From: Ignavibacteriales bacterium
GTDB taxonomy: Bacteria > Bacteroidota > Ignavibacteria > Ignavibacteriales > Melioribacteraceae
DNA: 64,000 bases
Assembly: GCA_026390775.1 (NCBI GenBank)
Contig: JAPLFF010000007.1
Coordinates: 744,001 to 808,000 of the forward strand
Reading direction: 5' to 3'
Shown here: positions 30,413 through 43,028 of the stretch, in pieces
Position numbering within the stretch: position 1 is the first letter of the stretch
Layout: every line of letters begins with the position of its first letter
Program-made: the position numbers and the translations under genes
The notes under the pieces: model-generated
What the model saw: the letters and a program-made list of their open reading frames with translations, nothing else
Told to the model about the DNA's origin: nothing
Database searches by the model: none

Positions 30413-31351
30413 ATGAAACGAAAAGAATTTATAAAGAAAAGTTTCTTAGCCGCGGGCGCAATAATACTAGCTCCCTTATTTATTAATTCCGATTCAAAAG
30501 CAAAACCAAGTGTTAAACTAAATTATAAACCCGAACCGCATAAATGGAATGACAATGAATTAACACTTGCCTGGATCGGGCAGTCAACAGTATTAATAAA
30601 TTTTTTGGGTAAGTGGATCATAACAGATCCGGTTTTATTCGAACGGATCGGTGTATATTTCTTCGGCGGTTCTATCGGTCCGGCACGACTTACGCCTCCG
30701 GCGCTTGAAGTTCATGAAATACCCAAACCGGATATTATTCTTCTTTCGCATGCACATATGGATCACATGGATTATCCAACACTAAAAACTATTGCTGAAC
30801 ATTATCCGAATGAAATTGATGTTATCACAGCTTACTTAACAAAAGATGTTATTAATGATCTGCCATGGAAATCACTTCACGTAATGGATTGGAATGATGA
30901 ACTGATTCTTAACAATATAAGATTCAGAGCTAACGAAGTAAAACATTTCGGCTGGCGTTTTCCGTGGGAGAAAGACCGCTCGCGCGGATATTTCAAGGAT
31001 GGAAGAAGCTACAACGCATATTTGATCGAATATAAAAACAAGAAAATTTTATTCGGCGGAGATACATCTTTGCAGGATAAATTCCACCAGCTAAAAAATG
31101 AAAATATCGATGTTGCACTTATGCCCATTGGCGCTTACAATCCTTGGTTAAGAAACCATTGCAATCCGGAACAAGCATTACAAATGGCAACCGAGATCAA
31201 CGCAAAATATTTCATTCCGATGCACACTAAAACGTTTCAGCAGGGTGTAGAACCGTTCAACGAACCAATTGACTGGATGAAACGAATTGCTCCAAATTAT
31301 AATATTAAAATCGGTCTGGAAGAAATCGGGCAGACGTTTGTTTTGTCTTAA
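30413..31351 (+). CDS. MBL-fold metallo-hydrolase (UlaG/NAPE-PLD-like)
   Basis: Metallo-beta-lactamase-fold hydrolase with an exported N-terminus: KRKEFIKKSFLAAGAIILAP resembles a Tat signal in which the second Arg is Lys. The metal motif LSHAHMDHMDYPTL, followed by FGGDTSLQDKFH and the late IPMHTKTF, gives a full dinuclear site. Overall it resembles the UlaG/NAPE-PLD branch (LAWIGQSTVLINFLGKWIITDP). The substrate is unknown. It precedes the glycyl-radical locus by about 120 bases on the same strand but is not obviously part of it. Confidence 0.87.
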   Translation: MKRKEFIKKSFLAAGAIILAPLFINSDSKAKPSVKLNYKPEPHKWNDNELTLAWIGQSTVLINFLGKWIITDPVLFERIGVYFFGGSIGPARLTPPALEVHEIPKPDIILLSHAHMDHMDYPTLKTIAEHYPNEIDVITAYLTKDVINDLPWKSLHVMDWNDELILNNIRFRANEVKHFGWRFPWEKDRSRGYFKDGRSYNAYLIEYKNKKILFGGDTSLQDKFHQLKNENIDVALMPIGAYNPWLRNHCNPEQALQMATEINAKYFIPMHTKTFQQGVEPFNEPIDWMKRIAPNYNIKIGLEEIGQTFVLS

Positions 31352-31471: not shown

Positions 31472-32278
31472 GTGCAAGACAAAGGTTACATCTTTGATAT
31501 AAAAAAGTTCTCGGTTAATGACGGACCGGGAATCCGCACAACCGTTTTTTTCAAAGGCTGTCCGCTCAATTGCTGGTGGTGTCATAATCCCGAATCTCAA
31601 CACACAGAACCTGAAGAAGTTGATAACTGCATTTTTAGATGGAGTCTCTCACACGATCAATCACAGCGGAACAAGATAGGTTCTCAAGTTTCTGTTGATG
31701 AAGTGATGAAAGAAATCGAAAAAGATCTTCCTTTCTACGAAGAATCAAACGGAGGCGCAACCTTTTCTGGCGGTGAACCGATGCTTCAAATTGATTTTCT
31801 GCAATCGCTTCTTGCTGAATGCAAAAAGAAAGATATTAACGCCGCTGTTGATACTACCGGTTACGTACCGTTCAGTGACTTTGAAAAAATTTATGATAAA
31901 ACGGATATTTTTCTTTACGATCTGAAACTCATGGATGATAAAATTCACTTTGAATATTGCGGTGTATCCAATAAACTGATTCATGAAAATCTCAAAAATC
32001 TTTCTTCCCGCGGTGATAAAATTATTTTACGTCTTCCTATTATTCCTACAATAACCGACACAGAAGAAAATATTTCTCAAACTATTTCTTTTATCTCAAC
32101 ATTAAAGAACATCCGCGAGATTGATCTGCTTCCCTTTCACAGCACGGCAAAATCTAAATACGAACGGATGCAAAAAGAGAACAAAGTTGTTAATTTAGTA
32201 CCGCCTACAAAAGAATATATGAATGAATTAAGAAATAGATTCCTACAACTTGGCATTCCGATCAAGGTCGGAGGATAA
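31472..32278 (+). CDS. Glycyl-radical enzyme activase
   Basis: Radical SAM enzyme that installs the glycyl radical on the dehydratase encoded two bases downstream. The cluster motif is Cys30-x3-Cys34-x2-Cys37 (GCPLNCWWCHNP), after DGPGIRTTVFFKG. GGATFSGGEPMLQ and YDLKLMD are standard activase motifs. It lacks the extra ferredoxin-like cysteine pairs found in many activases, so it is the short, PflA-like form. The start is GTG 31472. The tight coupling makes it the specific partner (HypE-type) of the downstream enzyme. Confidence 0.92.
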   Translation: MQDKGYIFDIKKFSVNDGPGIRTTVFFKGCPLNCWWCHNPESQHTEPEEVDNCIFRWSLSHDQSQRNKIGSQVSVDEVMKEIEKDLPFYEESNGGATFSGGEPMLQIDFLQSLLAECKKKDINAAVDTTGYVPFSDFEKIYDKTDIFLYDLKLMDDKIHFEYCGVSNKLIHENLKNLSSRGDKIILRLPIIPTITDTEENISQTISFISTLKNIREIDLLPFHSTAKSKYERMQKENKVVNLVPPTKEYMNELRNRFLQLGIPIKVGG

Positions 32279-32280
32279 AA

Positions 32281-34644
32281 ATGAACGAAAAAATAAAAAA
32301 ACTCAGACAGCAATCACTTGATGCAATTCCCACGCTTTCGCATGAACGTGCAAAACTTTTAACTGAATTTTACAAAAGCGGAGAGCCGCAAAAACATTCC
32401 GTTCCGGTTGCACGCGCTTTAGCTTTCAAATACCTTTTAGAGCATAAAGAACTTTGTATAAATGATGGTGAGCTTTTCGTTGGTGAAAAAGGACCTGCGC
32501 CAAAAGCAACACCGACCTATCCGGAACTCTGTGTTCACTCACAGCAAGATTTGGAAATTCTTCACAACCGCGAAAAAGTATGGTTCAAATCGAGTGATAA
32601 AACTCGTAACGTAATTCTTAATGAAGTGGCTCCTTTCTGGAAAGGAAAAAGTATTCGCGAAAAAATCTTTGAAGAAGTTGACCAAGAATGGCGCGATTCA
32701 TACAAAGCCGGAATTTTCACAGAGTTTATGGAACAGCGCGCTCCGGGACATACGGTTGGCGATGATAAAATTTTTAAAAAGGGAATGCTTGATTTCAAAA
32801 AAGAGATTCAAGAAGCAATCAGCAAGTTAGATTTTTATAACGATCCGGAAGCGTTCTCAAAACGCGAAGAACTGCACGCTATGGAAATTTCTGCTGAAGC
32901 TTTAATTGCATTTGCGAAACGTTACAGCAAAAAACTTTCCGAGCTTGCTGAAACAGAAAAAGATAAACAACGCAAGAACGAACTTGAAACAATGGCAGGT
33001 ATTTGCGAGCGCGTTCCGGCAAATGCACCGCGTACATTCTGGGAAGCACTTCAATATTATTGGTTCGTTCATCTAGGAGTTACAACAGAACTCAACACAT
33101 GGGATTCATTCAATCCGGGACGGCTTGATCAGCATCTTTATCCATTTTATAAACGAGATATTGAAAGCGGACTGCTGAACGAAAAACAAGCGTGCGAACT
33201 TCTTCAATCATTCTGGATAAAGTTTAACAATCAACCTGCTCCCCCGAAAGTCGGTGTGACTGCACAGGAAAGTAATACTTACACGGATTTTTGTTTGATC
33301 AACATTGGCGGCGTTACTGAAAAAGGCGATGATGCATCCAACGAGATGAGCTACATACTTCTTGATACTATTGAAGAAATGCGTTTGCTTCAGCCAAGCT
33401 CGATGGTACAGGTAAGTAAAAAAAATCCGGATAAACTTTTAAGACGCGCTTTGAAAATCATTAAAACCGGTTATGGTCAGCCGTCTATCTTCAACACTGA
33501 TGCGATAATTCAAGAACTAACACGGCAAGGTAAATCAATAATTGACGCACGATGCGGCGGTGCAAGCGGATGCGTTGAAGCCGATGCATTCGGAAAAGAA
33601 GCGTACATTCTTACCGGCTACTTCAACATTCCTAAAATTTTGGAAATCACTCTTCACAACGGATTAGATCCGCTAACAGAAGAACAAATTGGGTTACAAA
33701 CCGGAAATCCGGAATCATTCAAATCATTTGATGAACTTTATTCTGCTTTCGAAAAACAACTCAATCATTTCATAGATATTAAGATTAAAGGAAATATCAT
33801 CATCGAACGAATTTATGCTGAATACATGCCCGCACCGTTCTTATCTATATTGATTGACGATTGTATCAAGAAAGGAAAAGATTATAATGCCGGCGGAGCG
33901 CGTTACAATTCATCTTATATACAAGGAGTTGGTATAGGAACCATTACCGATTCACTTTCTTCAATCAAGTTCAACGTGTTTGATAATAAGAATTTTACAA
34001 TGAGTGAAATGCTTGAACTTCTTAAATGTAATTTCGAAAACAAAAAAGAGGAGAGAGAAAAACTTTTGTTCTTTACTCCAAAGTACGGTAATGACGACGA
34101 CTATGCTGATGATATATTGCGAAAAGTTTTTGAAAGTTACTTTAAAGCTGTAGATGGAAGGCCGAATACAAAAGGCGGGCATTTCAGAATTGATCTGTTG
34201 CCAACTACTTGTCACATTTATTTTGGAAGTGTTCTTGGCGCAACACCCGACGGACGTTTTGCAAAAGAACCTGTAAGCGAAGGAATTTCTCCAGTGCAAG
34301 GCGCTGACGTACATGGTCCTACTTCTGTTATTAAATCTGCATCAAAGATTGATCATCTACGGACGGGCGGAACATTGCTTAATCAAAAATTTACTCCTAA
34401 CTTTCTTGAGACCGATGAGGGAATTGAAAAAGTTCTTTATCTCATCAGAACATATTTTAAGTTGGACGGACATCATATGCAGTTTAATGTTGTTAATGCA
34501 GAAACTTTGCGCGAAGCACAAAAGCATCCTGAAAAATACAGGGATCTTATTGTTCGAGTTGCCGGTTATAGTGATTACTTCGTTGATCTCGGCGAAGATT
34601 TACAGAATGAAATTATTAGAAGAACAGAACATACTGGTGCGTGA
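32281..34644 (+). CDS. hypD: Glycyl radical dehydratase, trans-4-hydroxy-L-proline dehydratase-like
   Basis: Oxygen-sensitive radical enzyme of the PFL superfamily (787 aa). The thiyl Cys431 and general-base Glu433 are in GGASGCVEAD, and the radical glycine Gly762 in RVAGYSD. A GCVE active site marks dehydratases, whereas pyruvate formate-lyase has adjacent cysteines. The following blocks FGKEAYILTGYFNIPKILE and IKGNIIIERIYAEYMPAPF match, from memory, the HypD family, which turns trans-4-hydroxy-L-proline into P5C. HypD usually has ETG/ETGA after the Cys; EADA here is a small difference. Neighbouring proline-pathway genes support the call. Alternative: another GCVE dehydratase. Confidence 0.83.
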   Translation: MNEKIKKLRQQSLDAIPTLSHERAKLLTEFYKSGEPQKHSVPVARALAFKYLLEHKELCINDGELFVGEKGPAPKATPTYPELCVHSQQDLEILHNREKVWFKSSDKTRNVILNEVAPFWKGKSIREKIFEEVDQEWRDSYKAGIFTEFMEQRAPGHTVGDDKIFKKGMLDFKKEIQEAISKLDFYNDPEAFSKREELHAMEISAEALIAFAKRYSKKLSELAETEKDKQRKNELETMAGICERVPANAPRTFWEALQYYWFVHLGVTTELNTWDSFNPGRLDQHLYPFYKRDIESGLLNEKQACELLQSFWIKFNNQPAPPKVGVTAQESNTYTDFCLINIGGVTEKGDDASNEMSYILLDTIEEMRLLQPSSMVQVSKKNPDKLLRRALKIIKTGYGQPSIFNTDAIIQELTRQGKSIIDARCGGASGCVEADAFGKEAYILTGYFNIPKILEITLHNGLDPLTEEQIGLQTGNPESFKSFDELYSAFEKQLNHFIDIKIKGNIIIERIYAEYMPAPFLSILIDDCIKKGKDYNAGGARYNSSYIQGVGIGTITDSLSSIKFNVFDNKNFTMSEMLELLKCNFENKKEEREKLLFFTPKYGNDDDYADDILRKVFESYFKAVDGRPNTKGGHFRIDLLPTTCHIYFGSVLGATPDGRFAKEPVSEGISPVQGADVHGPTSVIKSASKIDHLRTGGTLLNQKFTPNFLETDEGIEKVLYLIRTYFKLDGHHMQFNVVNAETLREAQKHPEKYRDLIVRVAGYSDYFVDLGEDLQNEIIRRTEHTGA

Positions 34645-34671
34645 ATAAATCAACAATATCATCTTGGCGAA

Positions 34672-34838
34672 AGTTTGCCTACCGGCAGGAGGACCAGAAT
34701 CCATAAGCAATGCTGTATTACATTTACATATTAGCAAGTAAAAGAAATAGAACACTTTATTTTGGAATGACAATCATAATTGAAGGAACTACACCATGTT
34801 CAAATCAAAAACTTACATTCAACGCAGAGCAGAATTAA
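34672..34838 (+). pseudogene. Remnant of a GIY-YIG endonuclease gene with repeat
   Basis: ATG at 34710 starts MLYYIYILASKRNRTLYFGMT, which is the conserved first strand pair of UPF0213/GIY-YIG nucleases, then the similarity ends abruptly and the frame stops at 34838, inside the next gene. The stretch before it (CTACCGGCAGGAGG at 34679-34692, then CCAGAATCC) resembles palindromic sequence commonly flanking such genes. About 21 residues of the domain remain. Inference: a degraded dispersed nuclease element. Confidence 0.55.
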
Positions 34839-36190
34839 AAAAGAAGATCGGTAAAGGATTGATTTTGTTCCTGGGCAACAATGAAGCGCCGATGAATTAT
34901 ACAGATAACACTTACTCATACCGTCAGGACAGCACTTTTCTATATTACTTCGGATTGGATAGATCAGAATTAGCTGCAGTTATAGATGTTGATGAGAATA
35001 AGGAAATTGTTTTCGGAAATGATTTCTCACTCGATGATATAGTTTGGATGGGACCGCAACAAACCGTTAAACAACTTGCATCGAAATACGGAGTAAAACA
35101 AACTGCATCATTGAATGATCTTGAAACTATGTGCGCTAATGCAATTAAGCAAGGAAGAAAAATTCATTTTATTCCTCAATACCGATATGATAATGTTTTT
35201 ACTTTGCACAGAATTCTTGGAATAATGTCCAGCCGTATAAATAATTTTGCTTCAACAGAATTGATTAAAGCAATCGCCGAACAGAGAATGATAAAATCCA
35301 ACGAAGAACTAGCAGAGATTGAAAAAGCAATTGCAATTTCTTATCAGATGCAGACTTCTGCCATGCGTTTTGCAAGACCCGAAATGTACGAACGCGATGT
35401 AATGGGATTTATTGCCGGATTAGCAATGTCGCTTGGAAGCGGAACATCATTCCCGGTAATTTTATCACGTCACGGAGAAACTCTTCACAATCATTTTTAC
35501 GGAAATAAATTTAAGAATGGCGATTTGGTTGTAAATGATTCCGGTGCAGAATCAGCTTTACATTATGCAAGTGATATAACACGCACATTTCCGGTTAACG
35601 GAAAATTTTCTCCGCGTCAAAAAGATATTTACGAAATAGTTCTTCTCTCACAGCTTGTAGCAATATCGGAAATTAAACCGGATATAAATTTTAAATCGGT
35701 TCATCTTAAAACAGCCAGAGTAATTGCAGAGGGTTTGAAAGCAGTTGGATTGATGAAAGGAAATATGAAAAATGCTGTTGAAGCCGGTGCACATGCTTTG
35801 TTCTTCCCGCATGGACTTGGACATTTAATGGGTCTTGATGTTCACGATATGGAAAATTATGGCGAGAATAATCTTGGCTATGATGAAAAAACAAAACGAA
35901 GTACACAATTCGGTTTAAAATATTTACGTTATGCAAAACCGCTTGTTCCCGGAACCGTTATTACAGTTGAACCGGGCATCTATTTCATTCCTCAGTTGAT
36001 AGATAAATGGCAAGGAGAGAAAAAGTTTACTGAGTTCATCAACTACAGCAAAGTTAATCAGTACAAAAATTTCGGCGGCGTTAGAATTGAAGATGATGTT
36101 GTTGTAACAAAGAAAGGATGTCGCGTACTTGGCAAACCAATTCCTAAAGCCGTTGATGATGTTGAGGCTATAGCTTCTGACAAAATTTAA
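34796..36190 (+). CDS. Xaa-Pro aminopeptidase (M24B)
   Basis: Metallopeptidase that removes N-terminal residues preceding proline (or hydroxyproline). The N-terminal creatinase-like domain (YTDNTYSYRQDSTFLYYFGLDRSELA) is followed by a pita-bread M24 domain with ligands Asp in VNDSGAES, Asp in ASDITRTF, His in GLGHLMGLDVHD, Glu in VEPGIYF and Glu in GVRIEDDV. The length of 464 residues fits PepP. It follows hypD after a 150-base gap with a nuclease remnant. In context it would release Pro and Hyp from peptides for the neighbouring catabolic enzymes. Confidence 0.92.
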   Translation: MFKSKTYIQRRAELKKKIGKGLILFLGNNEAPMNYTDNTYSYRQDSTFLYYFGLDRSELAAVIDVDENKEIVFGNDFSLDDIVWMGPQQTVKQLASKYGVKQTASLNDLETMCANAIKQGRKIHFIPQYRYDNVFTLHRILGIMSSRINNFASTELIKAIAEQRMIKSNEELAEIEKAIAISYQMQTSAMRFARPEMYERDVMGFIAGLAMSLGSGTSFPVILSRHGETLHNHFYGNKFKNGDLVVNDSGAESALHYASDITRTFPVNGKFSPRQKDIYEIVLLSQLVAISEIKPDINFKSVHLKTARVIAEGLKAVGLMKGNMKNAVEAGAHALFFPHGLGHLMGLDVHDMENYGENNLGYDEKTKRSTQFGLKYLRYAKPLVPGTVITVEPGIYFIPQLIDKWQGEKKFTEFINYSKVNQYKNFGGVRIEDDVVVTKKGCRVLGKPIPKAVDDVEAIASDKI

Positions 36191-36200
36191 CATATATGTT

Positions 36201-36234
36201 ATTTCGATCCCGATTTGTCGGGAGAGGAATCTCA
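36201..36234. repeat. Dispersed palindromic repeat (TCCCGATTTGTCGGGA type)
   Basis: ATTTCGATCCCGATTTGTCGGGAGAGGAATCTC with arms TCCCGA / TCGGGA (36208-36213 and 36218-36223). This text is typical of short dispersed elements of this bacterial group. It lies just upstream of the restriction gene. Confidence 0.5.
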
Positions 36235-36253
36235 AAATTAATTTGGAGAGAAT

Positions 36254-37192
36254 ATGCATCCATTTGAAGAAGAGTTAAGTGTAAGTAAAGAAGAAATTAC
36301 AATTCTACTTCAGAGTATAGGCAAAATTGAATGGTCTGATTTTTTGTTGAATCCGCGAAGATTACGTGGAAGCGACTTCTTGATGCGTTGGTCGCAAGGT
36401 GTTTGGAGCGAACACAGATTGATTGAGGCAGTGAACTCAACAAAAAAATATTTTGCTGTTCAATATGGACCAAGTAGTGCTGCACCATCAGATGATGTAC
36501 GAGAATTTGAATTATACTTTGAAAGATTAGATAAAGCAGGACTAGGAAATATCAAACGACCAGATTTGTTGATCTATAAAATTGAAGACCGAGAATTTGT
36601 AGACAATTTTCTCAATGATGTTGGAGGGGAACAGGAGTTACCATTCATAAAAGAAAAAGATTTACAACCACTCATAGAAAAATCATTAATTGGTGTTGAA
36701 TGTGAAAACTCGCTTTGGGTTGCGAAAGATATGCCCGCTTATGGAAGTGAACTTACCCCACAAAAAAGATTGAACGGAAAATTAGGGTTAAAAAAATCTG
36801 CCGTTCTTCCAACAATCATTGTAAAAGAAGAGGATTTAAAACCGTTAACTAGATGGCAGACAAGCAATAAAAAAACTATTCATATTTGGCATGGTTTCTA
36901 TGATTTAGCTTTTGGAATCTCTTATAATAGATTAAAAAGCTTAATTTCTAGAAAGCTTATACTTCCTACTGAGCAGGTCTTTCAAGCACCCGGAGGTGCA
37001 ACCACAAAAAAAATCATTTATAAAGTTTATTATCACTATGCTTATCCATTAGGGGTTTCGACGCAAGAACCAAAGTTAATACCTGCTTACATTAAAGATA
37101 AAAATGGTCATATACTCCCTTATGTAATGTTTGAAGGCGGTCAATTGAAAATTATGAACGAAGCATTAGAAGAATTAGAAAGGTTACGATGA
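36254..37192 (+). CDS. Type II restriction endonuclease (AccI-like, tentative)
   Basis: Predicted type II restriction enzyme of 312 residues, assigned mainly because it overlaps a TaqI-class DNA methyltransferase gene by four bases (ATGA). A plausible PD-(D/E)xK nuclease core is RPDLLIY (Asp104) and GVECENSLWVAKDMPAYG (Glu149, Glu151, Lys158). The N-terminus (FLMRWSQGVWSEHRLIEAVN) and C-terminal specificity region (HGFYDLAFGISYNRLKSLI) resemble my memory of AccI-type enzymes, which is uncertain. The recognition site cannot be read. Confidence 0.7.
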   Translation: MHPFEEELSVSKEEITILLQSIGKIEWSDFLLNPRRLRGSDFLMRWSQGVWSEHRLIEAVNSTKKYFAVQYGPSSAAPSDDVREFELYFERLDKAGLGNIKRPDLLIYKIEDREFVDNFLNDVGGEQELPFIKEKDLQPLIEKSLIGVECENSLWVAKDMPAYGSELTPQKRLNGKLGLKKSAVLPTIIVKEEDLKPLTRWQTSNKKTIHIWHGFYDLAFGISYNRLKSLISRKLILPTEQVFQAPGGATTKKIIYKVYYHYAYPLGVSTQEPKLIPAYIKDKNGHILPYVMFEGGQLKIMNEALEELERLR

Positions 37193-38751
37193 CAAATAAA
37201 GCGGTTCAATTAATTCCAACTAACTGGGACAAAAGAGAAAAGCTGAGAGAGAAAGGTCAGTTCTGGACTCCGCCATGGGTTGCAGATGCAATGGTTAGTT
37301 ATGTTTTAGACAATACAAAATTAATATTTGATCCCGCAGTTGGGAGAGGCGCATTTTTAGAAGCGTTAAGAAGAACTACAAATAAAAAAATTTCTTTTTA
37401 CGGAACTGATATTGACCAAGATGTTTTGCGTGATACAATTTTTAGCGATAATAATTGTTCTGTTGAAAAAAGAGATTTCATTAAGGACCCTCCGAAAAAA
37501 CTTTTCAAATCAATCATTGCTAATCCACCATATATTCGTCATCATCGCATCGATAGTGCGACAAAACTTTTTTTAAAAAAACTTACTGCAAACATTACTG
37601 GATTTACATTAGATGGAAGAACAGGTTATCACATTTTCTTTTTGCTACAAGCGCTGAATCATCTTGAAGAGAATGGAAAACTTGCTTTTATCATGCCCGC
37701 GGATACGTGCGAAGGGACATTCGCAAAAAAATTATGGAACTGGATTTCAAAAAAATATGCTATTGAATGCGTCATTACTTTCGATAGTTCAGCCACTCCG
37801 TTCCCATCTGTAGATACAAATCCATTAATTTTCTTGATTAAAAAAGCAGAACCGCTGGAAAATCTTATTTGGGTTAGAGTAAATGAACCACATTCGGATG
37901 ATCTGACATTGTTTATAAAAAGTAGTTTCCAAACAGGACATTACAAAACAATATCGGTTACGCAAAGAAAAATTCAGGAAGCCTTAGAAACAGGATTTTC
38001 CAGACCACAACAAAATGGGAATGGATTTAAATATCATCTTTCTGACTTTGCAAAAGTCATGCGTGGAATTGCAACCGGTTCAAACGAATTTTTCTTTTTA
38101 ACAAATGACCAAGTGAAAGAATCAAAGATTCCCGAAAAGTATTTTAAATTAGCAGTGGGAAGAACTAAAGATGTCACTGGTGATATTCTCGAAACAAATG
38201 AAATCAAGAACCTTGAGTTTAAGCAACGCCCAACTCGCCTTCTTTCTATTGAAGATCATAAAGATAGTCTACCTAAGTCGGTAGTTCAGTATTTGAAACT
38301 TGGCCAAGAGATGGGCTTACCGTATAGAGCACTTATTCAACAAAGAAAACCATGGTTCAGAATGGAAAGAAGAGAAATTCCTCAAATTCTTTTTACGTAT
38401 TTGGGCCGCCGGAATTCTCGGTTTATTTTAAATCAAGCCGAAGTATTACCTTTAACAGGATTTCTTTGTGTTTATCCTATTCATAAAGATGAAATATTTG
38501 TACACAATCTTTGGAAAGTGTTAAATCATCCTGATACAATTAAAAATTTGTTACTCGTTGGTAAAAGTTATGGTTCAGGTGCAATTAAAGTTGAACCAAG
38601 AAATTTAGAAAGACTCGGGATCCCAGAAGAACTTGTAGAAAAATATAAATTGGTTCGACTTCAATACAAGCAAACAAATCAATTAAGTTTATTTGTAAAT
38701 GAAAAGAAAAATAGATACAGAGTAAAAAAATCAGCTAGAATTAAAACGTAA
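37189..38751 (+). CDS. Type II N6-adenine DNA methyltransferase (gamma class)
   Basis: DNA methyltransferase of the M.TaqI-like gamma class (520 aa). Motif X-like QFWTPPWVADAM, motif I DPAVGRGAFL (residues 48-57) and the catalytic NPPY at 112-115 are in the order expected for gamma enzymes; a large C-terminal target-recognition region follows (RGIATGSNEFFFLT, FTYLGRRNSRFILNQ). It protects host DNA from the overlapping upstream endonuclease. The C-terminus is strongly basic. Together the pair is a mobile accessory cassette dropped between peptidase and proline dehydrogenase genes. Confidence 0.92.
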   Translation: MTNKAVQLIPTNWDKREKLREKGQFWTPPWVADAMVSYVLDNTKLIFDPAVGRGAFLEALRRTTNKKISFYGTDIDQDVLRDTIFSDNNCSVEKRDFIKDPPKKLFKSIIANPPYIRHHRIDSATKLFLKKLTANITGFTLDGRTGYHIFFLLQALNHLEENGKLAFIMPADTCEGTFAKKLWNWISKKYAIECVITFDSSATPFPSVDTNPLIFLIKKAEPLENLIWVRVNEPHSDDLTLFIKSSFQTGHYKTISVTQRKIQEALETGFSRPQQNGNGFKYHLSDFAKVMRGIATGSNEFFFLTNDQVKESKIPEKYFKLAVGRTKDVTGDILETNEIKNLEFKQRPTRLLSIEDHKDSLPKSVVQYLKLGQEMGLPYRALIQQRKPWFRMERREIPQILFTYLGRRNSRFILNQAEVLPLTGFLCVYPIHKDEIFVHNLWKVLNHPDTIKNLLLVGKSYGSGAIKVEPRNLERLGIPEELVEKYKLVRLQYKQTNQLSLFVNEKKNRYRVKKSARIKT

Positions 38752-38820
38752 CCCATAACTAATAACCTTTTTGGTTATGTCCTTTACATTACTCTATCAT
38801 AAAACTAAAAGGATTCTTTA

Positions 38821-39747
38821 ATGAGTTTATCACGCAACATTCTTCTCTGGGCTTCTGAAAATAAATGGATGCGTAAAAATGTTCCTTCTTTGGGATTTGT
38901 AAAAAGTGCTGTAAAAAAATTTATGCCCGGCGAGAAAGTTGAAGATGCTTTAAATGCTGCAAAAATTTTCCAAGATAAAACCATTCCAACAATCTTTACG
39001 AAACTTGGTGAAAATATTACCGATCTTTCCGAAGGATTAGTTGTACGTGATCATTATTTGAGATTAATAGATAAAATTGCAGAACGAAATCTTGATATTG
39101 AAATTTCCTTAAAGCTTACCCAACTTGGTTTTGATCTTTCATTTGATGAAACGTATGAAAGATTTAAAGCCATAACTAAAAAAGTAAAAGAAAAACTCGG
39201 AAATGTAATTTGGATCGATATGGAAGGCAGTGCATATACACAGAAAACAATTGAGTTTTATAAAAAAATCAGAAGTGAGTATGAAAATGTCGGTTTATGC
39301 CTTCAAGCATATCTGTACAGTACTGAAAAAGATATTTATGACCTGCTAAGTATTAATCCTTATATAAGATTGGTTAAAGGTGCATACAAAGAATCACATG
39401 AAATTGCATTCCCCAAAAAGAAAGATGTAGATCATTCTTTCTTTGAGATTTCCAAAAAATTAATGATTGCCGCCAAAGAAGAAAATATTCATGTTGCGTT
39501 TGGAACTCACGATGAAGATTTGATTTATGCTATAATTAAAGAATCAAAATATTTAGGTGTTCCTAAAAACAAAATTGAATTTCAAATGTTGTACGGTATA
39601 AAAACTAATTTCCAAAACGAATTGGTTAAACTCGGTTACAAATTAAAAGTGTTGATCAGTTACGGCGATTTCTGGTATCCATGGTACATGAGAAGATTAG
39701 CTGAGCGACCATCCAATGTTTGGTTTGTTTTAAAAAATATTTTTTAA
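38821..39747 (+). CDS. Proline dehydrogenase-like flavoenzyme
   Basis: Monofunctional FAD enzyme of the PRODH family (308 aa) that oxidises proline to P5C. It has ISLKLTQLGFDLS, IWIDMEGSAYT, RLVKGAYKE, FGTHDEDL, EFQMLYGIK and the substrate-binding RRLAERPSN (Arg291, Arg292). In most PRODHs a Tyr lies 13 residues before the first of these Args; here that position is Leu278 (KVLISYG). Vertebrate hydroxyproline dehydrogenase also lacks that Tyr, so substrate preference may differ from proline. It belongs with the aldolase and P5C dehydrogenase genes that follow on the same strand. Confidence 0.9.
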   Translation: MSLSRNILLWASENKWMRKNVPSLGFVKSAVKKFMPGEKVEDALNAAKIFQDKTIPTIFTKLGENITDLSEGLVVRDHYLRLIDKIAERNLDIEISLKLTQLGFDLSFDETYERFKAITKKVKEKLGNVIWIDMEGSAYTQKTIEFYKKIRSEYENVGLCLQAYLYSTEKDIYDLLSINPYIRLVKGAYKESHEIAFPKKKDVDHSFFEISKKLMIAAKEENIHVAFGTHDEDLIYAIIKESKYLGVPKNKIEFQMLYGIKTNFQNELVKLGYKLKVLISYGDFWYPWYMRRLAERPSNVWFVLKNIF

Positions 39748-39749
39748 AT

Positions 39750-39810
39750 TATCAGACCACCCCCTTCTATTCCCCCTCCTTACTTAAGGAGGGGGACACG
39801 GGGGAGGTTA
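39750..39810. repeat. Dispersed C/G-rich palindrome
   Basis: Perfect 10-base stem CCCCCTCCTT (39772-39781) / AAGGAGGGGG (39786-39795) with loop ACTT, flanked by ACCACCCCC and ACGGGGGAGG, giving further outer pairing. A related, degraded copy lies at 62844-62880. It sits between the PRODH and aldolase genes and ends close to a possible ribosome-binding site for the latter. Confidence 0.7.
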
Positions 39811-39819
39811 AGAGGAAAC

Positions 39820-40713
39820 ATGAAACAGTTGAAAGGCATAATGCCTCCAATAGCAACTCCATTTGTTAACGATGAAGTTGCATATGAAAAGCTGGCACAA
39901 AATTTTTCTAAGTGGAACAAAACTGGATTGAGCGGATTTGTAGTTATGGGTTCGAACGGTGAATCCGTTTTCTTAACAAGAAATGAAAAATTAAGACTTG
40001 TTGAAGAAGTGAAGAAAAATATCCCTGATGATAAATTACTGATTGCCGGTACGGGTTCAGATTCTATTAGAGAAACAATTTTATTATCGAATGATGCGGC
40101 TGAGCGCGGCGCTGATTATGTTTTAATTCTAACGCCTTCTTTTTATAAATCCGAAATGAACCCCGCAGCATATATAAAATATTTTCCCGCGGTAGCTGAT
40201 AAAACAAAAATCCCGGTTATAATCTACAACGTACCAAAGTTTACCGGGGTTGATATTGAAGCCGAGACAGTAGCAAAACTTGCCGAGCATAAAAATATTG
40301 TAGGCATAAAAAACAGTTCTGAAAATATTAGACAAACCATAGAGATGATTGATCAAACACCTAAAGATTTTGCAGTAATTATTGGAACTGCCTCCGTATT
40401 GTATCCGGGTTTGGCTGCCGGAGCCGTTGGTGGAATACTTGCGCTTGCAAATATTGCACCTAATGAGTGTGTGCAGATTCAAAAATTTGTTGAAGAAAAA
40501 AAATATTCGGAAGCACTTGAATTACAGAAGAAAATGTTACCAGTGAACAAAGCTATTACATCTAAGTATGGTGTTGCCGGATTAAAAGCGGCAATGGATA
40601 TGCTTGGCTATTTCGGTGGTGAACCACGAGCGCCGCTTTCGGTATTGAGTGAGCCGGATAAACTGCAGCTAAAACAAATACTAGTAACTGCAAGCTTACT
40701 AAAACAATTTTGA
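39820..40713 (+). CDS. DapA-family aldolase, 4-hydroxy-2-oxoglutarate aldolase-like
   Basis: Class I Schiff-base aldolase of the DHDPS family (297 aa). Lys164 (IVGIKNSS) is the Schiff-base residue and Tyr136 (IIYNVP) the catalytic tyrosine. The motif after Tyr is NVPKFTGVDI. True DapA has an Arg two residues after the Pro (NVPSRTG) to bind aspartate semialdehyde; here it is Phe, so lysine synthesis is unlikely. The ends AVGGILALANIA and ITSKYGVAGLKAAMDMLGYF resemble, from memory, the HOGA enzyme of hydroxyproline breakdown. Context of PRODH and P5CDH supports that. Alternative: another NAL-family aldolase. Confidence 0.8.
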   Translation: MKQLKGIMPPIATPFVNDEVAYEKLAQNFSKWNKTGLSGFVVMGSNGESVFLTRNEKLRLVEEVKKNIPDDKLLIAGTGSDSIRETILLSNDAAERGADYVLILTPSFYKSEMNPAAYIKYFPAVADKTKIPVIIYNVPKFTGVDIEAETVAKLAEHKNIVGIKNSSENIRQTIEMIDQTPKDFAVIIGTASVLYPGLAAGAVGGILALANIAPNECVQIQKFVEEKKYSEALELQKKMLPVNKAITSKYGVAGLKAAMDMLGYFGGEPRAPLSVLSEPDKLQLKQILVTASLLKQF

Positions 40714-40714
40714 T

Positions 40715-40757
40715 TGTCATCCTGAATTATGCGAAGAATTTCTAAGACGGCGGAGTA
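40715..40757. repeat. Dispersed extragenic fragment
   Basis: TGTCATCCTGAATTATGCGAAGAATTTCTAAG resembles the widely dispersed GTCATCCTGA...GAAG element class seen between genes in many genomes. It occupies the gap between the aldolase and the unknown gene that follows. Family membership is by eye only. Confidence 0.35.
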
Positions 40758-40785
40758 AATGATTTATTAAAATAAAGAGTTCATT

Positions 40786-41235
40786 ATGATTCCTTATACT
40801 AAAACCATAGCAATAACTGAAATACAAAGTCAGATATCTGTAATTGATTCTATTAACCCAAGTGAACTGTTCTCAGAACAATTTGAAGACTGGAGAAAAA
40901 AAACTGAAGGTCTCCTTTCTGACATATTTAACAGCGATAGCCGCCAACTGAAAGATTTTATTAAATTAAAATTTAGGCCTAGTATTAGATTTCTGAGTAC
41001 TGTTGTAAATGATCAAACAGATGTAAAATATTTTAAGGATGGTTTGAATACAGCGAAAATTCTACTCGAATCATTTATAAAAGAAATTGATAAGTATTGG
41101 CAAGATGATATCAAAGCAAACAATAAGTCGAATATAAACCTAAATGACGTTATTGAACTTAAACCAAACTTTATGGGATTTGGACTGAACATTAACGCAA
41201 TTATTAAAAAATTTTTTAAGAGAAAACAGAATTAA
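40786..41235 (+). CDS. Hypothetical protein
   Basis: Unrecognised 149-residue soluble protein with no signal peptide. It is helical and charged: WRKKTEGLLSDIFNSDSRQLKDFIKLKF in the middle, and a basic end (IIKKFFKRKQN). No catalytic motif is visible. It lies between the aldolase and P5C dehydrogenase genes on the same strand, about 70 and 155 bases from each, with a dispersed repeat on the upstream side, so it may be a later insertion rather than a pathway gene. Confidence 0.6.
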   Translation: MIPYTKTIAITEIQSQISVIDSINPSELFSEQFEDWRKKTEGLLSDIFNSDSRQLKDFIKLKFRPSIRFLSTVVNDQTDVKYFKDGLNTAKILLESFIKEIDKYWQDDIKANNKSNINLNDVIELKPNFMGFGLNINAIIKKFFKRKQN

Positions 41236-41390
41236 GGAAAAATTTCAACAAGGCATAAACTGTCATAACCACGATAGTCTAAAAATCAAATAAGTTTACA
41301 ACACAGATTAAATAGATTGTGAACTCACCAGATAATTTTCCTAATTTTCGTATATCAATTTATTTCCTCTTGAATGAAAAAGGTATAAAC

Positions 41391-43028
41391 ATGGCAAATG
41401 CAATATTTAATGTTCAACTTCCACCAAACGAACCGGTAAAAAATTACGCATCCGGATCACCGGAAAAAGCTGCACTGAAAGCAAAGCTTGATGAAATGGC
41501 TAAGCAGACAATTGATATTCCAATTATTATCGGCGGAAAAGAATTCAGAACCGGCGATACGGACAATTGTGTAATGCCTCATGACCATAAACATATTCTC
41601 GGTAAATATCATAAAGTAGGAACGAAAGAAGTTAATGATGCTATTGCCTCCTCAATGAAAGCACATAAAGATTGGTCACGAATGAATTGGCAAGATAGAG
41701 TTTCCGTATTCCTAAAAGCTGCAGATCTTTTAAGTCAAACCGAATGGAGATATATTCTAAACGCTGCAACAATGTTAGGACAAAGCAAAAATCCATTTCA
41801 AGCTGAAATTGATGCTGCTGCTGAACTGGTTGATTTCTTCCGCTTCAATGCTTATTACGCTATGAAGATCTATCAAGAGCAGCCGCTTCATTCCCCAATT
41901 GGAATGTGGAACAGAATGGAATACCGTCCTCTCGAAGGATTTATTTTTGCAGTAGCTCCGTTCAACTTTACATCTATCTGCGGAAACTTACCAAGTGCAC
42001 CTGCTTTGATGGGAAATGTTGCATTATTAAAACCAGCATCAAGTGCGGTTTATTCTGCTTATTGGATAATGAAATTATTGGAAGCTGCAGGATTGCCTGA
42101 GGGTGTAATAAATTTTGTTCCGGGCGCGGGTTCTAAAGTTGGAAATCCTGTAATGGATTCAGAACATTTTGCAGGAATTCATTTTACCGGAAGTACTTCT
42201 GTATTTCAAGGAATGTGGAAAACAGTTTCGAATAATTTACCTAAGTATAAATCTTATCCAAGAATTGTGGGTGAGACAGGCGGCAAAAATTTTATTTTTG
42301 CTCACCAAAGTGCAGATGTAAAAGCTCTCGGTGTTGCTTTGATTCGCGGTGCGTTTGAATATCAAGGACAAAAATGTTCTGCCGCTTCACGCGCTTATAT
42401 TCCAAAATCAATTTGGCCAGAACTAAAAGATTTTATTGTTAGCGAATTAAAAACTGTTAAGATGGGCGATCCGCGTGACTTCTCTAACTTTATGAATGCC
42501 GTAATTGATAAAGGTGCATTCGATACAATTACTGGTTACATAGATTACGCAAAGAAATCGAACGAAGCTAAAATTATCTCCGGCGGAAATTACGACAGCA
42601 CTAAAGGTTATTTCATAGAACCAACCGTTATCGAAACAACAAATCCAAAATTCAAATCAATGGAAGAAGAAATTTTCGGTCCCGTTCTAACGCTTTATGT
42701 TTACGATGACAGCAAATACGAAGAGACTCTTAACATATGCGATCAAACTTCTCCTTATTCACTAACCGGAGCTATCTTCGCACAAGACAGATATGCAGTA
42801 GAACTTGCAAATAAAATCTTGGTGAATGCCGCCGGTAATTTTTATATCAACGATAAACCAACGGGTGCAGTTGTAGGTCAACAACCGTTCGGCGGTGCGC
42901 GTGCAAGCGGAACTAATGATAAAGCAGGAAGTTATTTGAATCTCCTACGCTGGGTTTCTGCCCGTACAATAAAAGAAAATTTTATTCCGCCTCATGATTA
43001 CCGTTATTCGTTCATGTCGGAAAAGTAA
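41391..43028 (+). CDS. L-glutamate gamma-semialdehyde (P5C) dehydrogenase
   Basis: NAD-dependent aldehyde dehydrogenase of the P5CDH (ALDH4-like) group, oxidising glutamate semialdehyde to glutamate. It has APFNFTSICGNLPSAPALMGN, the NAD loop HFTGSTSVFQGM, the general-base Glu in VGETGGKN and catalytic Cys329 in YQGQKCSAASR, plus the C-terminal QQPFGGARASGTNDKAG anchor typical of P5CDH. I use the ATG at 41391 (545 aa), preceded by AAAGG; the frame runs 24 codons upstream without homology. It would take P5C from either PRODH or HypD. Confidence 0.94.
   Translation: MANAIFNVQLPPNEPVKNYASGSPEKAALKAKLDEMAKQTIDIPIIIGGKEFRTGDTDNCVMPHDHKHILGKYHKVGTKEVNDAIASSMKAHKDWSRMNWQDRVSVFLKAADLLSQTEWRYILNAATMLGQSKNPFQAEIDAAAELVDFFRFNAYYAMKIYQEQPLHSPIGMWNRMEYRPLEGFIFAVAPFNFTSICGNLPSAPALMGNVALLKPASSAVYSAYWIMKLLEAAGLPEGVINFVPGAGSKVGNPVMDSEHFAGIHFTGSTSVFQGMWKTVSNNLPKYKSYPRIVGETGGKNFIFAHQSADVKALGVALIRGAFEYQGQKCSAASRAYIPKSIWPELKDFIVSELKTVKMGDPRDFSNFMNAVIDKGAFDTITGYIDYAKKSNEAKIISGGNYDSTKGYFIEPTVIETTNPKFKSMEEEIFGPVLTLYVYDDSKYEETLNICDQTSPYSLTGAIFAQDRYAVELANKILVNAAGNFYINDKPTGAVVGQQPFGGARASGTNDKAGSYLNLLRWVSARTIKENFIPPHDYRYSFMSEK

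Follow-up and report, generated by a model that had tools for sequence, protein, structure and literature searches.

Gene content of the locus and the identity of HypD

We examined a gene cluster in a 64,000-nucleotide stretch of DNA from an Ignavibacteriales bacterium (family Melioribacteraceae; contig JAPLFF010000007.1, positions 744,001 to 808,000), referred to below as the window. An earlier note on this DNA had proposed that it encodes the glycyl radical enzyme HypD with its activase, an Xaa-Pro aminopeptidase, a proline dehydrogenase (PRODH), an aldolase resembling 4-hydroxy-2-oxoglutarate aldolase (HOGA) and a 1-pyrroline-5-carboxylate (P5C) dehydrogenase (P5CDH), and that these genes serve the breakdown of proline and hydroxyproline. 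Hydroxyproline is a constituent of collagen. All six were confirmed as open reading frames (ORFs) on the plus strand (Table 1). For P5CDH we took 41391 as the likely start, which is of the MANAIF type, as in relatives.

Table 1. Features of the locus and the matches on which their names are based (coordinates are positions in the window).
Feature	Coordinates	Strand	Basis and remarks
Metallo-beta-lactamase-fold hydrolase	30413..31351	+	Pfam PF12706; recurring upstream neighbour; many relatives have it next to the gene of the activase or of the aminopeptidase
HypD-activating radical S-adenosylmethionine enzyme, short form without ferredoxin insert	31472..32278	+	Best model NF043069
HypD glycyl radical enzyme	32281..34644	+	NF043068; PDB 6vxc; active-site residues
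M24 Xaa-Pro aminopeptidase	34796..36190	+	PF00557 and PF05195; recurs in the cluster of relatives
AccI-type restriction endonuclease, passenger	36254..37192	+	PF09545, 47.8 bits
N6-adenine DNA methyltransferase, partner of the endonuclease	37189..38751	+	PF02384, PF07669, PF22837
PRODH-B, proposed hydroxyproline dehydrogenase	38821..39747	+	PF01619; Leu and Trp replacing two Tyr of reference PRODHs
HOGA-like 4-hydroxy-2-oxoglutarate aldolase	39820..40713	+	Closest PDB entry 3s5n; HOGA specificity residues
149-aa protein without recognised family	40786..41235	+	Occupies the aminotransferase place of many relatives
P5C dehydrogenase	41391..43028	+	TIGR01236; listed ORF begins 41319

The window HypD scored 1322.7 bits against the curated model NF043068 (cut-off 1100), and its closest solved structure was 6vxc at 1070 bits, with the runner-up at 554. 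Papers cited here by PMC accession are represented by extracts of their text. All 11 active-site residues of C. difficile HypD that we took from the extract of the structure paper (Arg156, His160, Asp278, Lys326, Ser334, Asp339, Phe340, Cys434, Glu436, Tyr450 and Thr645; PMC7077986) are identical in the window protein, and a Leu to Ile replacement at position 718 does not involve a residue named there. The curated model and the active-site residues thus agree with the earlier assignment of the glycyl radical enzyme to HypD, and the protein is predicted to dehydrate trans-4-hydroxy-L-proline (Hyp) to P5C. The glycine that we take to be Gly765 of HypD is likewise identical in the window.

The activase gave its best match to NF043069, at 324.6 bits against a cut-off of 425, and so fell below the threshold for membership, probably because it lacks the ferredoxin insert. 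Its CxxxCxxC cysteines lie at residues 30, 34 and 37, with one more Cys (53) ahead of the GGEP motif. Among 20 activases compared, the 17 that adjoin a HypD of the close type (at least 70% identical) have 0 or 1 Cys between CxxxCxxC and GGEP, and the 3 that adjoin a distant type (54-55% identical; loci L129, L131 and L132) have 8-10 Cys there. The family holds two HypD lineages: in the clustered one the activase gene precedes HypD and the 8-Cys insert is missing, and in the distant one, of which these three were examined, HypD precedes an activase that carries the 8-Cys ferredoxin insert. The clostridial route through HypD and ProC, known from C. difficile, also has HypD beside an activase gene and the same active site. 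It differs from the window in that here the ProC match lies on another contig, HypD sits with PRODH-HOGA and P5CDH, and the activase is without the 8-Cys ferredoxin insert.

The PRODH-HOGA module in relatives

We compared 79 genomes of the family, counting a PRODH-B when it scored >350 bits to the window copy and an aldolase when it scored >300 bits. The window genome encodes two proline dehydrogenases. One type, PRODH-A, occurs in most of the 79 genomes, and the other, PRODH-B, is found in 29. The aldolase is present in 31 of the 79 and is accompanied by PRODH-B in 29 of them, always on one contig and with 9-542 bp between the two genes (29/29); G026 has in addition a 50-residue PRODH-B fragment at a contig end. 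We also scanned named genomes for two peptide patterns typical of the cluster aldolases, and retained the best 80 of 137 confirmed loci. An aldolase at least 52% identical to that of the window (cluster type) is encoded in 60 of them and one at 51% or less in 20, with a few genomes giving two loci (L169 and L171, L188 and L205).

In 53 of the 60 cluster-type loci, PRODH-B precedes the aldolase on its strand, at a distance of 9-542 bp. None of the 20 distant loci has a PRODH, HypD or P5CDH match, and two have a weak aminotransferase match. The PRODH-B and aldolase genes make up a single conserved module, which is new here, and the recurrence of the gene order across genomes is beyond chance. 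The expectation that the genes stay together in relatives was thus borne out for PRODH-HOGA (53/60 named loci); a full HypD stands in the same stretch in 13/60, with a 55-bit remnant in one more. Records bearing the module are titled Ignavibacteria, Melioribacter, Candidatus Kryptoniota, Calditrichaceae and, in one case (L185), Deltaproteobacteria, and are mostly from uncultured bacteria. The title of L185 may be wrong, because its neighbouring ORFs resemble those of a Calditrichaceae record (L190). Stygiobacter electus 09-Me (L181) is also among the bearers of the module, and no HypD match was found in its genome.

Other genes recur around the module. An aminotransferase was found in 41/60 loci at >45 bits and in 38/60 at >200 bits, and 34 of these 38 start within 702 bases after the aldolase. 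It was closest to the alanine-glyoxylate aminotransferase 1vjo (366 bits), with serine-pyruvate aminotransferase entries, presumably human AGXT, at 287-294; the three copies that we scanned fell below each of the NCBIfam equivalog cut-offs listed. The aminotransferase favours a role in hydroxyproline breakdown because it would use the expected product of the aldolase. A putative trans-3-Hyp dehydratase occurs in 13/60 loci, an S37 peptidase in 11/60 and a POT permease in 7/60. The dehydratase belongs to PF05544, the family to which we assign the Lhp epimerase, and we considered it as a 4-Hyp epimerase. We dropped this candidate, since Cys and Thr occupy the two catalytic positions in the proteins of all 13 loci, as in 7qpo, a pattern that we take to mark trans-3-Hyp dehydratase. 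Two of them scored 394.5 and 375.2 against NF045511 (cut-off 540), and the top PDB match was an entry named proline racemase (6r76). The window genome itself has no PF05544 match, and an epimerase route was rejected for it.

HypD and the oxidative module are separable. HypD exceeded its cut-off in 30 of the 79 family genomes. It tends to co-occur with the aldolase, exceeding the cut-off in 23 of the 31 aldolase-bearing genomes and in 7 of the other 48 (Fisher p 1.8e-7, kinship ignored; HypD fragments in G013 and G026 scored as absent). In three members of the window's own genus (G023, G024 and G025) the aminopeptidase-PRODH-HOGA genes are kept and HypD is missing at the locus. G025 retains, beside the aminopeptidase gene and in the expected place, a remnant of the HypD C-terminus (C169:3342-3470, locus L188; 20.7 bits), a sign that HypD was lost there and the oxidative module stayed. 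These genomes, together with G054, G064 and G066, which have the module and no HypD at the locus, and the 7 genomes that have HypD and no aldolase, would fit the idea that HypD has no connection with the oxidative module beside it and that chance or transfer joined the two in one clade. We regard that idea as very improbable: the two share a contig within ~12 kb in several of the family's genera, and do so in other named genomes too, they have neighbour genes in common, and both routes would feed a single P5CDH.

The earlier gene list was correct in that every gene it named was found, but it overlooked the AccI-type endonuclease and methyltransferase genes that split the cluster. In three genomes of the genus, namely that of the window, G023 and G027 (loci L098 and L103), this restriction-modification pair stands between the aminopeptidase and PRODH genes. 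The close relative G028 lacks the pair, which has the look of a passenger in the cluster. The 149-aa protein between the aldolase and P5CDH had no Pfam or NCBIfam match at E 0.001 and no match among 40 relative loci (E 1e-8, >60 bits). On the plus strand after P5CDH lies a 142-aa protein that by eye resembles CBS domains.

Active sites of PRODH-B and the aldolase

Tyr540 sets the preference of PRODH for proline over hydroxyproline, according to the extract of PMC3718742, which cites Ostrander 2009. In the family alignment, two tyrosines of the substrate pocket separate the two PRODH types. The first stands in a column that we equate with Tyr540 by assumed numbering, and is Leu in 29/29 PRODH-B and Tyr in 21/21 PRODH-A rows (20 distinct genes, one entered twice, hand-picked from many). 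The second, just before the Arg-Arg motif, is Trp in all PRODH-B and Tyr in the same PRODH-A rows. For the reference enzymes we assume the residue numbers Tyr552 of PutA, Tyr275 of TtPRODH and Ser485 of the animal hydroxyproline dehydrogenase HYPDH. Leu and Trp recurred in 53/53 PRODH-B proteins of the named loci, a set that overlaps in genomes with the 29 of the family. The catalytic machinery is kept in these proteins: the Arg pair and Glu are present in 53/53, and Lys and Asp in 52/53, the remaining row having a gap there. The monofunctional PRODHs 2ekg and 4h6q, presumably from Thermus and Deinococcus, are of the same family and have the catalytic Lys, Asp, Arg-Arg and Glu columns in common with PRODH-B, which differs from them by the Tyr to Leu and Tyr to Trp changes of its pocket.

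These two altered active-site residues suggest that PRODH-B now uses hydroxyproline, which would be a substrate switch within the PRODH family. PRODH-B has lost the proline-favouring Tyr, as HYPDH has, and carries Leu in place of the Ser that we take human PRODH2 to have. It may therefore work like the animal HYPDH subfamily but is not placed within it.

An unlikely alternative is that the substrate of PRODH-B is a different cyclic imino acid, such as cis-4-hydroxyproline, some other 4-substituted proline or D-proline. The aldolase would then act on the corresponding oxo-acid, and HypD would deal with Hyp. The Tyr replacements alter the pocket without specifying a single substrate, and many module loci have no HypD match, though many are cut by contig ends. 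However, a pyruvate-forming class I aldolase would by its pathway chemistry need a 4-hydroxy-2-oxo acid, which fits 4-hydroxylated prolines, and the neighbours seen in some relatives (prolyl peptidases, a dipeptide permease, trans-3-Hyp dehydratase and HypD) point to collagen peptides.

Among solved structures the aldolase was closest to mitochondrial HOGA (3s5n, 222 bits), with the best dihydrodipicolinate synthase (DapA) at 155. The human HOGA residues Lys196, Tyr168, Ser77, Asn78, Ser198 and Gly222 are all retained in the window protein, and for Asn78 and Ser198 the extract of PMC3188589 notes a difference in DapA. The aldolase is thus a candidate for cleaving 4-hydroxy-2-oxoglutarate. An aldolase tree left the placement of human HOGA unsettled. 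As a side observation, a distant HOGA-like aldolase of Gudongella sp. (L225) stands, by eye, amid an aminotransferase, hydroxyacid dehydrogenases and a transporter, and perhaps has another catabolic use; five of the 20 distant loci inspected by eye (L216, L219, L225, L226 and L227) gave no common neighbour theme.

We also weighed whether the locus is one of ordinary proline catabolism by PRODH and P5CDH beside HypD, with the aldolase acting as DapA for lysine or the cell wall or as an unrelated pyruvate aldolase. No further DapA-family protein was matched in the window genome, the aldolase narrowly missed the cut-off of the DapA model TIGR00674 (200.5 against 206.15), and P5CDH is the genome's sole copy over its cut-off. 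Against this, the aldolase carries Ser-Asn and Ser where the single DapA compared has Thr-Thr and Ala, and the genome already has a PRODH-A with both tyrosines. Moreover, a DapA-family (PF00701) match is absent from 40 of the 79 genomes of the family, among them some with a listed completeness of 99-100%, so doing without DapA is characteristic of the lineage. On these grounds we rejected a DapA identity, in line with the earlier expectation that the aldolase would not group with true DapA, and consider ordinary proline catabolism quite improbable.

Proposed hydroxyproline catabolism and its significance

We consider it likely that the locus is a catabolic cluster for collagen peptides and hydroxyproline with two entry routes. 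The first would be anaerobic, as it depends on a glycyl radical: the activase would switch on HypD, which would dehydrate Hyp to P5C, to be oxidised to glutamate by P5CDH or reduced to proline by ProC. In the second, oxidative route, PRODH-B would act as a hydroxyproline dehydrogenase yielding 3-hydroxy-P5C, P5CDH would convert this to 4-hydroxyglutamate, a general aminotransferase would form 4-hydroxy-2-oxoglutarate, and cleavage of the latter by the HOGA-like aldolase would yield pyruvate and glyoxylate. The alanine-glyoxylate-type aminotransferase encoded nearby in most named relatives would turn glyoxylate into glycine. The two routes would be used under different redox conditions. That oxygen-free and oxidative hydroxyproline breakdown are encoded together, as the earlier note had suggested, is supported by the gene identities, the recurring order and the residue changes, from which we infer the reactions.

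The remaining enzymes were sought in the window genome. P5CDH scored 794.4 bits against TIGR01236 (cut-off 613.6), placing it in that family, and since no second copy exceeds the cut-off, this enzyme would work with HypD and the two PRODHs alike and is not dedicated to hydroxyproline. The earlier note had called for a search for ProC and an aspartate aminotransferase elsewhere in the genome. A ProC match was found on another contig, below the cut-off (171.4 against 196.75), and five class I aminotransferases at >120 bits are candidates for the transamination.

Several observations weigh against the proposed pathway. The window genome appears to have lost the alanine-glyoxylate-type aminotransferase, the best match to the cluster type being 24 bits, and malate synthase was not found in it. 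Only 24/60 loci have P5CDH in the same stretch, 22 of them on the aldolase strand. Seven of the 60 have the aldolase without PRODH-B, one of them beginning at a contig end, and G044 and G052 carry only PRODH-A. Many loci are cut by contig ends, and the 52% dividing line was set after the table of loci had been inspected. The Leu of PRODH-B is not the Ser that we believe known HYPDH and human PRODH2 to carry at the Tyr position. As to the aldolase, the six HOGA residues are retained in 19 or 20 of the 20 distant homologues, which have no PRODH match nearby; they are therefore not exclusive to the cluster and do not prove the substrate. The mean identity of human HOGA is 0.40 to the cluster aldolases and 0.42 to the distant group. 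The putative catalytic Tyr140 of human HOGA is Phe in the window and in 54/60 cluster aldolases, though the extract of PMC3188589 states that Tyr140 is not required for proton shuttling.

Some loci without PRODH-B are of interest in their own right. L115 (G052) and L117 (G044) have a HOGA-like aldolase and hydroxyproline-type neighbours, with HypD adjoining in G052. Three others (L176, L177 and L180), inspected by eye only, showed no evident replacement oxidase among the listed ORFs.

The pathway of animal mitochondria (PRODH2/HYPDH, P5CDH, aspartate aminotransferase, HOGA1 and AGXT) has a family counterpart here at each step, the transaminase being matched only by general class I enzymes and AGXT only in relatives. 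The trans-3-Hyp dehydratase of animals (PMC8779045, extract) likewise has a counterpart in relatives. The arrangement described here differs from the animal one in being bacterial, with its genes together, in having a PRODH-B related to the short Thermus enzyme with Leu and Trp, in the HypD that adjoins in part of the genomes, and in that alanine-glyoxylate aminotransferase was not found in the window genome. A third system, the Lhp route to alpha-ketoglutarate (LhpA-F, Pseudomonas), also degrades trans-4-hydroxy-L-proline (PMC5144071, extract); it differs in that its epimerase family, PF05544, has no match in the window genome and in relatives shows the Cys/Thr pattern of trans-3-Hyp dehydratase.

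Extracts of the published work describe bacterial use of 4-hydroxyproline through HypD and ProC (PMC9044972, PMC12899673) or through four Lhp enzymes leading to alpha-ketoglutarate (PMC5144071), and attribute the pyruvate-glyoxylate route to mammals. A Geobacillus plasmid cluster, perhaps for proline and hydroxyproline, includes a proline dehydrogenase, and the genes listed in the extract include neither HypD nor HOGA (PMC4593210). We found no description of HypD combined with an oxidative module among the matches listed in the openly licensed literature, which covers few subscription journals and was represented by titles and the starts of abstracts. Nor did the listings and extracts of that literature, which lacks most subscription journals, describe bacteria in which a specialised PRODH takes part in a glyoxylate route.

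We lean moderately toward a broader view, in which Ignavibacteria and neighbouring lineages carry a gene module for converting hydroxyproline to glyoxylate of the animal type, and in which its dedicated hydroxyproline dehydrogenase evolved separately out of a bacterial PRODH, through changes of Tyr to Leu and of Tyr to Trp. Some of these bacteria pair the module with HypD, so that hydroxyproline from collagen would be usable with or without a respiratory acceptor. A conserved bacterial module of PRODH, HOGA and aminotransferase would extend the mammalian pyruvate-glyoxylate route to bacteria, and would supply a natural experiment on the change of substrate in PRODH. Leu and Trp in a PRODH beside HOGA would be a genome signature by which organisms that use hydroxyproline could be recognised in environmental genomes. 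Since some genomes have only the oxidative module, some only HypD and others the two together, the division of labour between them can be tested directly.

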